Of a stretch of DNA of 64,000 nt, positions 43,267 through 63,160 are shown one piece after another. The stretch is taken from assembly GCA_017938695.1 (NCBI GenBank), contig JAGBBA010000047.1, positions 1 through 64,000 on the forward strand, in the 5' to 3' direction. The notes beneath the pieces are model-generated. The model searched no databases. It was not told the DNA's origin and saw only the letters and a list, made by a program, of their open reading frames with translations. The DNA comes from Clostridia bacterium (lineage in GTDB: Bacteria > Bacillota > Clostridia > Christensenellales > Aristaeellaceae). Position 1 is the stretch's first letter. Every line of letters begins with the position of its first letter. Both the position numbers and the translations under genes were made by a program.

Positions 43267-43308
43267 GTAAAAAACTGGGGAAATACAACATTTGTTTGAC
43301 ATAAATCA

Positions 43309-60937: not shown

Positions 60938-60966
60938 CGGGTGGGCGAGAACCGCTCACCCGTTTA
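60938..60966 (+). terminator. Terminator after rnhA
   Basis: CGGGTGGGCG (60938-60947) pairs with CGCTCACCCG (60953-60962; one G-U), followed by TTTAT. Confidence 0.75.
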
Positions 60967-60977
60967 TCCATGTTTCT

Positions 60978-61015
60978 GCAACTATTCGCTAAACCACAGT
61001 TTCACGAATAGTTGC
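60978..61015. repeat. Inverted repeat upstream of the tyrosine recombinase gene
   Basis: GCAACTATTCG (60978-60988) and CGAATAGTTGC (61005-61015) are perfect 11-bp arms around 16 bases. No U-tract follows. It may be an operator, an RNA hairpin or a recombinase-related site. Confidence 0.6.
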
Positions 61016-61045
61016 GCCCGTAAAATACTGCCGGGAGGTGTATCT

Positions 61046-62182
61046 ATGTCTGAATCAGCCTACCGTGAGCAAATCGACGCCAAACGCATTTTGCAGATTC
61101 GTTCTATCACGCGCGAGCTTCCTCAGGCTTGTTCTGATTTTCTGCGCGGCATTGCGGTGACCACCGGCACGTTCACACGGCTGGCTTATGCCATCGATCT
61201 GCGCACGTTCTTTCATTTTCTACAAACGGAACGTGTCGCGTTTTCAGACAAGAATTTGACCCTTTGGTCGGATGAAGACCTCTCCCGCGTGTCTCAGAGC
61301 GATCTGACGGCGTATATCGAATATCTGACGTACTATTTCAAGTCTGACGACGAATCGTCGGATCAGCCGGTCAAGGCACTGGTCAATCATGATCTGGCCA
61401 TCAAACGCAAGCTGTGTTCGATCCGGTCATTCTATGATTTTCTTTTCAAGAATCATCGTGTGCCGTCTAACGTGACATTGCTTGTGCCGCTGCCGAAGAT
61501 TCACGAGAAGCCGATCCTGCGCTTGAATCGTGATGAAATGATCAAGATGCTGAATCAGGCAGAAACCGGCGAAGGCATGACCGACGGCCAGAAGCGTTAC
61601 CAGAAACTGACAGCCAAGCGCGACTATGCGATGCTGTCGCTGTTTCTGGGAACAGGCATTCGCGTATCTGAATGTGTTGGCATTAATCTGTCTGATGTAA
61701 ACCTGGAAGAAAATGCCTTCCTTGTCACAAGAAAAGGTGGCAATCAGGTCGTTTTGTATTTTCCGGCCGAAGTTGCGACCACTTTGGCGGAATATATGGA
61801 AGAGCGCAAGAAAATAGACACCCTCCCAGGCCATGAGGATGCCTTGTTTTTGTCGCTGCAAAAGCGGCGTATCACACAGCGAGCTGTGCAGAATCTGGTC
61901 AAAAAATATGCCATGGTAGCGGCTCCGCTGAAGCCGAAAATCAGCCCCCACAAGCTGCGCAGCACCTTTGCTACCAACCTATACAATGCCACCGGTGACA
62001 TTTATCTGGTGGCCGATGTGCTGGGCCATTCCTCTGTGGATACGACCCGCAAGCACTATGCCGATATGACCGACGCCCGCCGCCGCATGGCTGCTGAATA
62101 TGTCAAGCTGCCTGGCACCGATGCAGAGGAACCCGACTCCCCCGATATTGCTTTCGTCAAACCGGATAAGCCCGTGACCTGA
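61046..62182 (+). CDS. Xer-like tyrosine recombinase
   Basis: Predicted 378 residues. N-terminal SAM-like DNA-binding domain (about 35-150), then a phage-integrase catalytic domain with Arg in LGTGIRVSECVGINLSDV (about 210), Lys in TRKGG, HKLRSTFATNL (His-x-x-Arg), LGHSSVDTTRKHYA (His and the nucleophilic Tyr). It resembles XerC/XerA-type chromosome-dimer recombinases and could play that role, as the xer gene missing between trmFO and hslV. CGGGAGGTG precedes the ATG. Stop codon abuts the convergent gene. Confidence 0.9.
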   Translation: MSESAYREQIDAKRILQIRSITRELPQACSDFLRGIAVTTGTFTRLAYAIDLRTFFHFLQTERVAFSDKNLTLWSDEDLSRVSQSDLTAYIEYLTYYFKSDDESSDQPVKALVNHDLAIKRKLCSIRSFYDFLFKNHRVPSNVTLLVPLPKIHEKPILRLNRDEMIKMLNQAETGEGMTDGQKRYQKLTAKRDYAMLSLFLGTGIRVSECVGINLSDVNLEENAFLVTRKGGNQVVLYFPAEVATTLAEYMEERKKIDTLPGHEDALFLSLQKRRITQRAVQNLVKKYAMVAAPLKPKISPHKLRSTFATNLYNATGDIYLVADVLGHSSVDTTRKHYADMTDARRRMAAEYVKLPGTDAEEPDSPDIAFVKPDKPVT

Positions 62183-62419
62183 TCAATGATGGTGATGGCC
62201 GCAGTCGCAGTCATGATCATGATGATGGACGTTTGCAGGGGCGTTCAATTCGTTTTCCAAGGCAAAATGATCAACCATCACAGCGCGATATTCCGCATCA
62301 GAATTGACGCACTTCATGCAGTTATCGCAGATTTTGTTGGGATCCAGGTCGCAGCGGTCGCATTCGCCGCAGCCGATGCATTCGCGGTCTTCCAGGACGC
62401 ATTGCTTCTTCAAAGCCAT
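62183..62419 (-). CDS. Cys/His-rich mini-protein divergent from lexA
   Basis: Predicted 78 residues with ten Cys (7, 14, 17, 20, 23, 31, 34, 37, 71, 73) and a His-rich end (HHHDHDCDCGHHHH). The core CIGCGECDRCDLDPNKICDNCMKC has spacing like ferredoxin or zinc-knuckle folds, so metal or cluster binding is likely. I do not recognise a named family. AGGAGATGATTTCA precedes the ATG at 62419; longer in-frame sequence upstream lies in the promoter. Its promoter shares two SOS-box-like sites with lexA, suggesting induction by DNA damage. Confidence 0.8.
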   Translation of the reverse strand: MALKKQCVLEDRECIGCGECDRCDLDPNKICDNCMKCVNSDAEYRAVMVDHFALENELNAPANVHHHDHDCDCGHHHH

Positions 62420-62439
62420 TGAAATCATCTCCTGAACAT

Positions 62440-62468
62440 AGTATAACACATGTTCCCATTTTACGCAA
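62440..62468 (-). promoter_or_regulatory. Promoter of the Cys/His-rich gene
   Basis: Minus strand -35 TTGCGT (62468-62463), 17-bp spacer, -10 TATACT (62445-62440). A LexA-box-like site (62444-62455) overlaps the -10. Confidence 0.7.
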
Positions 62469-62488
62469 CAAACTGGGAACATGTGTTT
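62444..62488. promoter_or_regulatory. Pair of SOS (LexA) boxes in a divergent control region
   Basis: TAACACATGTTC (62444-62455) and GAACATGTGTTT (62477-62488) each match the Gram-positive SOS core GAAC-N4-GTTC with one mismatch. They are the ends of a perfect inverted repeat (CACATGTTCCCA 62447-62458, TGGGAACATGTG 62474-62485). One overlaps the left promoter's -10, the other the lexA -35. Confidence 0.78.
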
Positions 62489-62515
62489 GATTTTTTGTTT
62501 GCTTTATGCTATAAT
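62487..62515 (+). promoter_or_regulatory. Promoter of lexA
   Basis: -35 TTGATT (62487-62492), 17-bp spacer, -10 TATAAT (62510-62515) with extended TG; 34 bases ahead of the ATG. Confidence 0.85.
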
Positions 62516-62548
62516 ATCTGTAACTATACAAGCAAAGGCGGCGATATA

Positions 62549-63160
62549 ATGCAGCGTCCCCGTGGCGATAATCAGCAGCGCATTCTCGATTTTATCAAGG
62601 CTGAAATTCAGTTGAAGGGTTATCCTCCGTCTGTCCGTGAAATTGCCAATGCTGTGGGCCTTAAGTCCACCTCTACCGTGCACGGCCATCTGCAGCGGCT
62701 GGAGAAGCGTGGCCTGCTCCACCGCGATGCCATGAAGCCCCGCGCGATGGAAGTCGTTGGCGACCCCAATTTTGCGCGCAACAATTCTACTGCCGTGCCA
62801 GTGGTTGGCCGCGTGACGGCTGGCGTTCCCATCCTTGCAGAAGAAAATCTGGAGGAATACGTTGTTATTCCTGAGGTTATGCTGGGTGAAGGTGAACATT
62901 TTATTTTGCTTGTTCGCGGCGACAGCATGATCGAAGCCGGTATTCTGGACGGCGACTATATTGTCGTGAAAAAGCAGACGGAGGCCAACAATGGTGAAAT
63001 CGTGGTGGCCATGATCGACGATTCTGCTACCGTAAAGCGTTTTTACAAGGAAAACGGCCGTTTCCGCCTGCAGCCTGAGAACAGCACCATGGAACCCATT
63101 TATGCCGATGAAGTGACCATTCTGGGCAAGGTTATTTCTCTTTATCGTCTGGTGAAATAA
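62549..63160 (+). CDS. lexA: SOS repressor LexA
   Basis: Predicted 203 residues. N-terminal winged helix (about 6-65: GDNQQRILDFIK, GYPPSVREIANAVGLKSTSTVHGHLQRLEKRG), the self-cleavage site Ala91-Gly92 in RVTAGVPIL, and the protease dyad Ser126 (RGDSMIEAGI) and Lys163 (ATVKRFY). LexA represses SOS genes and cuts itself when RecA is active. The ATG at 62549 has AAAGGCGGCGAT ahead. It is autoregulated by the sites at 62444-62488. Confidence 0.97.
   Translation: MQRPRGDNQQRILDFIKAEIQLKGYPPSVREIANAVGLKSTSTVHGHLQRLEKRGLLHRDAMKPRAMEVVGDPNFARNNSTAVPVVGRVTAGVPILAEENLEEYVVIPEVMLGEGEHFILLVRGDSMIEAGILDGDYIVVKKQTEANNGEIVVAMIDDSATVKRFYKENGRFRLQPENSTMEPIYADEVTILGKVISLYRLVK

Follow-up and report, generated by a model that had tools for sequence, protein, structure and literature searches.

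The gene that lies divergent from lexA in the window (the whole stretch of 64,000 nucleotides analysed here) encodes a small cysteine-rich protein, the cys protein, and belongs to a family spread over the Clostridia for which we found no Pfam or NCBIfam entry. It is a real gene under purifying selection. Its product is most likely a small protein that carries metal or Fe-S, and the core task of this protein would be independent of LexA. The reading that we prefer, with a probability of about 0.6, is that the product of cys is small and probably cytosolic and has two metal sites, that the gene is a resident of a lexA-yneA-xer neighbourhood, and that in five species LexA would block it at a box on the cys side of the intergenic region (the left box). 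The features of the region are as follows.

60941..62182, plus strand: Xer-like tyrosine recombinase, convergent with cys, its end adjoining the cys stop codon
62183..62419, minus strand: cys gene, 78-aa protein with two four-Cys modules (C7-C20 and C23-C37), an EYRAVMVD stretch and a Cys/His tail
62428..62433, minus strand: ribosome-binding site AGGAGA of cys, 8 nt before the ATG, as read from the sequence
62440..62445, minus strand: cys -10 TATACT, extended by TGT (TGTTATACT after TTGCGT-17)
62444..62455, minus strand: left LexA-type box GAACATGTGTTA, in the cys promoter spacer; in 5 of 12 aligned genus species
62445..62487, no strand: perfect 14-bp inverted repeat formed from the two boxes, arms 62445-62458 and 62474-62487
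62463..62468, minus strand: cys -35 TTGCGT, 17-bp spacer
62477..62488, plus strand: right LexA-type box GAACATGTGTTT, which overlaps the lexA -35; all 12 aligned genus species have a box here
62486..62515, plus strand: lexA promoter TTTGAT ... TGCTATAAT (TTTGAT 62486-62491, extended -10 TATAAT 62510-62515)
62549..63160, plus strand: lexA, 203 aa; TIGR00498 E 2.5e-71

A conserved protein with two four-cysteine modules

The ORF product has ten Cys, eight in the core and two in the tail HHHDHDCDCGHHHH. A 78-residue protein with ten Cys and a tail, divergent from lexA, was exactly what a preliminary description of this DNA had reported, and the lexA match is a clear one. When the first 58 codons were compared among five species, including that of the window, dN/dS ranged from 0 to 0.14 in seven species pairs, dS being not computable in the other three of the ten. 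Homologues occur in 29 of 60 relatives, in 68 of 291 genomes of the class and in 36 of 299 genomes of the phylum, the own genome being counted each time.

The eight core Cys are invariant in alignments of 28 and 78 rows, the larger of which leaves out three ORFs with a shorter linker. Both modules, C-x(6-9)-C-x2-C-x2-C and C-x(6-7)-C-x2-C-x2-C with two residues between them, are present in 125 of 133 distinct ORFs. The linker has one residue in L084, L091 and L097 and three in L125; L029, L135 and L136 contain the second module only, and for L112 the ORF list holds no ATG, GTG or TTG 5' of the second module, the frame being open for 91 codons in the homologue search. Because the linker varies in length and a whole module can be lost, the modules would form two separate four-Cys sites, and the core is probably a pair of metal or Fe-S sites. 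Inspection by eye showed no export signal in the protein; disulphides are therefore improbable, which makes a role with metal or Fe-S the natural expectation. Binding of a metal or cluster is a plausible fit to the eight-Cys core, and we picture a cytosolic protein whose two modules would hold two metal sites, more likely [4Fe-4S] clusters than zinc, as the CxxCxxC sets favour the former.

His-rich tails are found in three separate sets of loci: L001-L006, which form the subclade of the window; family f42 (L138-L141, L143 and L090, of which L090 and L143 are the same contig); and L099. As judged from these sequences, the His/Cys tail is a repeated add-on in some lineages and not part of the core, and it would bind metal where it occurs. 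An internal duplication of the two modules was considered and rejected: their spacing is alike, but the non-Cys residues are no more alike than permuted ones (366 of 2000).

The intergenic region

Two promoters pointing apart can be read from the region, TTGCGT-17-TATACT for cys and TTTGAT/TATAAT for lexA, as had been proposed. The preliminary description also saw a perfect 12-bp inverted repeat placing one near-consensus LexA box on the left -10 and another on the lexA -35. The repeat is real, with arms of 14 bp rather than 12, and can be followed over 18 nt at 94% identity. When the 129-bp region was shuffled 5000 times with dinucleotides preserved, one shuffle gave a perfect repeat of 14 bp or more. 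The right box does overlap the lexA -35 (TTTGAT) as described. The left box is there too; it fills the cys promoter spacer, overlaps the -10 by 2 bp and departs from the core once, with a final A for T/C.

Boxes were scored with a matrix of the 12-bp core made from 66 lexA-upstream boxes, some genomes being represented twice and the box of the window itself included. The right box reaches 18.2 bits, the top score of the whole 64-kb window, and the left box 12.6 bits, the third, an unrelated site at 43286 being second at 13.3. Taken alone, the left box has a p of about 0.007 (133 of 20,000 shuffles of the left part score as well). It persists, however, in five species between which divergence at synonymous sites ranges from strong to saturated.

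Conservation of the boxes and promoters

The box overlapping the lexA -35 is conserved in all 12 aligned species of the genus. On the cys side, TTGCnn and a TATAAT-like -10 are kept: a simple script found the pair in 10 species, and in the remaining two it is visible by eye. The left box is found in five (L001-L005), all of them His-tailed, and L006 has a His tail without it. Judged by a box in the promoter of the gene, cys would belong to the LexA regulon in the window and four sister species, by sequence match; judged by conservation of the box with the orthologue it does not, since seven of the 12 aligned genus members are without the left box. LexA control of cys is plausible in the window genome and in its four sister species. 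The LexA tree did not resolve the species within the genus, the left-box group included, so any direction of gain and loss given here would be tentative.

In the window (62445-62487) and in L002-L005 the arms of the two boxes change together between species, reading either ATGT or ATAT. This joint change is not obviously required by LexA contacts, and may perhaps reflect homogenisation of the inverted repeat.

Beyond the genus, boxes were counted at a 12-bit threshold in 76 distinct divergent loci, four co-directional rows being set aside. Among the 20 loci with yneA, one has two boxes, 17 have three and two have four. The 56 loci in which cys and lexA were scored as direct neighbours have no box in 15 cases, one in 29, two in eight and three in four; the four with three boxes have gaps of more than 450 bp, in which a yneA may have escaped clustering. 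The left box of L003 escaped the count because the stretch ended there, and some of the zeros may share that cause. Just before cys, no LexA box was found in any of 22 yneA-bearing loci, the best score being 7.7 bits. Among 56 loci without lexA in the locus stretch, a LexA box lies within 200 bp upstream of cys in two (L015 and L089, from the same genome). There cys is away from lexA, which lies on another contig, and the palindromic box CGAACAGCTGTTC is found 106 bp upstream of it.

A scan for cys promoters was significant (p<=0.05) in about half of the loci (27 of 60, 10 of 20 and 27 of 53). TTGACC-18-TATAAT precedes cys in 18 of the 24 non-adjacent loci L035-L070.

The lexA, yneA and xer neighbourhood

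Of the 3-kb stretches around cys in 29 relatives, 21 contain lexA, which is divergent in 20 cases and co-directional with cys in one (L013). The best 80 of 520 confirmed loci, a set overlapping that of the relatives, include 43 with lexA, 39 divergent and four co-directional; L031 and L034 are counted as divergent, a script having called them convergent from overlapping, over-long ORF starts. In the 68 class genomes with cys, lexA lies within about 2.5 kb in 32, at 8-9 kb in five and on another contig in 11, there is no lexA match better than 1.3e-39 in 17, and in three the distance was not readable among the matches listed. In L127 and L128, 8-9 kb from lexA, cys ends a run of membrane-complex-like genes and an Fe-S-looking protein gene. 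The cluster to which the recombinase of the window belongs was found in 110 of 149 loci, counting repeats of one genome; the recombinase itself does not reach the cut-off of the XerC, XerD or XerS model. COG4974 (XerD/CodV type) appears among candidate gut SOS genes in one study (PMC3998124).

In 20 distinct lexA-bearing loci of other Clostridia a LysM protein is encoded between lexA and cys, and it matches the YneA model NF010723 (cell-division suppressor) in all four cases tested, two of them above cut-off. Wherever both genes are present (22 of 22 loci), yneA and cys are on the same strand with cys downstream, other genes lying between them in some loci. The yneA-cys gap is 35-127 bp in 11 loci, in eight of which the promoter script was significant; in these 11, read-through from an SOS-controlled yneA promoter is possible, and cys could be damage-induced without a box of its own. 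No YneA match was found in the window genome, nor in 16 of 17 other genus members, with a model that is not very sensitive and assemblies that are incomplete; as no yneA was found there, cys is taken as the direct divergent partner of lexA.

The arrangement recalls the YneA/lexA pair of Bacillus subtilis and of C. thermocellum (Clo1313_1450), with a small gene divergent from lexA and boxes in the shared region. According to passages of PMC8457756, lexA of C. thermocellum has a divergent neighbour resembling yneA, with LexA sites, and three sites lie upstream of lexA; those passages mention no Cys gene after the neighbour, and no paper on the next locus tag was found. The proteins differ: those resembling YneA in the present loci have LysM and begin with a hydrophobic stretch, whereas the cys protein is soluble-looking, Cys-rich and encoded downstream of yneA where both occur. 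That YneA looks nothing like the cys protein, as the preliminary description held, agrees with the lack of any LysM or NF010723 match in the window protein and 27 relatives; the implied replacement does not, cys being a neighbour of yneA elsewhere. Gene order indicates that cys often stands in a lexA / yneA / cys / xer neighbourhood and is a neighbour of yneA, not an unrelated replacement for it.

Probable independence from LexA and possible size of the LexA regulon

The expectation that orthologues always lie divergent from lexA with both boxes does not hold. Many are away from lexA and without boxes (a box is present in 2 of 56), an arrangement that the preliminary description itself had named as refuting its reading, also in genomes with a good lexA: of the 37 genomes in which cys is not beside lexA, 24 have no TIGR00498 match over cut-off and 13 have one, better than 1e-60 in five. 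In the group L035-L070 (24 loci), 17 have no lexA match over cut-off and seven have weaker matches between 1e-32 and 1e-39, perhaps to divergent LexA or to proteins of phage type. In this group of related Clostridia cys lies away from lexA, often near era, a PUA methyltransferase gene and a beta-CASP metallo-hydrolase gene. Six genus members have neither cys nor lexA; their assemblies are 68-88% complete, so that absence of both is not loss. LexA control of cys looks local because the left box occurs in five of 12 genus species, none precedes cys in the 22 yneA loci and many genomes keep cys without a strong lexA. Such control would be plausible here as a lineage-bound trait, not as the core role of the gene.

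In the own genome, recA (L184) has no LexA-like box, the best score in the 350 bp before it being 3.8 bits, and the only Y-family polymerase locus (L196, DinB-type) has none either, with a best score of 8.2 bits in the whole locus. A first LexA pattern, CGAACRNNNGTTYG, had no match, and two others were not above chance outside the lexA region, GAACANNTGTTY giving 5 matches against 9 for its reversed control and GAACNNNNGTTTG 10 against 23. LexA may therefore control little beyond itself and cys in this genome, with recA and the DinB-type polymerase gene without a box in an assembly that is 87.5% complete. It would be a long shot, though a conceivable one, that the LexA regulon of this genus has been reduced to nearly two genes, lexA and that of a twin-cluster Fe-S protein, and that these anaerobes would answer DNA damage by way of a metallo- or redox protein instead of a YneA-type division arrest.

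Regulation of cys: weighing the readings

In the preferred reading cys would long have belonged to the lexA-yneA-xer neighbourhood in Clostridia, normally expressed from its own promoter. In the window lineage, where yneA was not found, it would have come to lie directly divergent from lexA, and in a single five-species group its promoter spacer holds a second LexA box, so that LexA would block RNA polymerase and DNA damage would release the block. The cys protein might instead be a dedicated SOS effector (a metal scavenger, redox switch or checkpoint factor), maybe a stand-in for the missing YneA. Its gene is divergent from lexA in many genomes, and among the 60 relatives lexA is over cut-off in 27 of 29 with cys vs 11 of 31 without; the displaced cys of L015/L089 has a good LexA box, and the failure to find YneA in the window genome, with possible read-through from yneA in 11 loci, points the same way. 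Yet the 24 displaced-gene genomes noted above, and 16 of the 68 class genomes with cys, have no lexA over cut-off, and in the class the share of genomes with lexA over cut-off is alike for those with cys (52 of 68) and those lacking it (169 of 223). The coexistence of both genes in 22 loci, with no box before cys, further argues against a simple YneA substitute, and overall we consider a dedicated effector clearly unlikely.

Autoregulation of lexA could also account for both boxes, with two LexA dimers bound on one face of the DNA and cys hit by its position or hardly at all. The box centres are 33 bp apart, about three helical turns, each of 20 distinct lexA-yneA regions scanned holds two to four boxes, three sites lie upstream of lexA in C. 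thermocellum according to the passages cited (PMC8457756), and a single box is the commonest count in direct cys/lexA loci (29 of 56). The left box, however, fills the spacer of a genus-wide conserved promoter and overlaps its -10, where bound LexA should block transcription, and we hold that autoregulation is rather unlikely to be the whole function of the two boxes. It is very improbable that the inverted repeat is a hairpin or the site of another regulator instead of a LexA pair: its two arms share one core sequence and both change from ATGT to ATAT between species, but the repeat lies upstream of both predicted starts and should not be transcribed, and its right arm is the box at lexA found in 12 of 12 genus members and, in strict form, at 67 of 93 lexA loci.

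Comparison with known proteins and published work

A metal- or cluster-binding partner of this kind had been called undescribed, and no description of such a lexA-adjacent Cys gene was found in the titles, abstracts and passages of open-licence papers, subscription papers lying outside that search. No divergent Cys gene came up in term searches of papers on C. difficile and C. acetobutylicum LexA (PMC4234289, PMC4689574, PMC3828012), and in the first of these none of the terms occurred. These two-module Cys proteins are a widely conserved family of Clostridia that lacks a database entry as far as searched and has a recurrent place beside lexA and yneA. Loci with one box, with two boxes and with no strong lexA offer a natural series for asking how genes enter or leave the LexA regulon, and they raise the question of whether the SOS response of these anaerobes leaves recA and DinB outside LexA control.

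Database searches gave no convincing family match for the cys protein in Pfam, NCBIfam or PHROGs. The best PHROG match (E 0.0052, 2 of 28 members) was to a PHROG of unknown function, and a TPR_27 Pfam match (E 0.0028, below cut-off, 1 of 28 members) was taken as chance. The best hit of a PDB profile search was eS26 (E 0.11), and resemblances to ferredoxin, eS26, Fer4 and zf-CXXC all stood at E 0.01-0.7 only. The AlphaFold model was weak (pLDDT 76, pTM 0.39) and gave no PDB fold match with Foldseek or VIA-align. A phage or plasmid origin of the gene was considered and dropped, there being no tblastn match.

Like the clostridial 2[4Fe-4S] ferredoxins (1fca, 1fdn), the cys protein is small and has a CxxCGxC motif and eight Cys; unlike them, it is arranged as CxxCxxCxxC-x7-CxxCxxC with no CP, and the profile match is only E 0.28-0.67. 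Fer4_7 gave E 0.84 with the window protein, and Fer4 was matched in 1 of 28 members (E 0.013). The cys protein shares with zf-CXXC (PF02008) the pattern CGxCxxC then CxxCxxC, but its fourth ligands would sit upstream, and no significant Pfam match was obtained (2 of 28 members, best E 0.028). HypB and SlyD have His-rich metal tails, and the cys protein is like them in its His/Cys-rich C-terminal tail, although this tail is optional in the cys family. In L130-L136 the C terminus carries long acidic extensions, with a PG stretch near the end.
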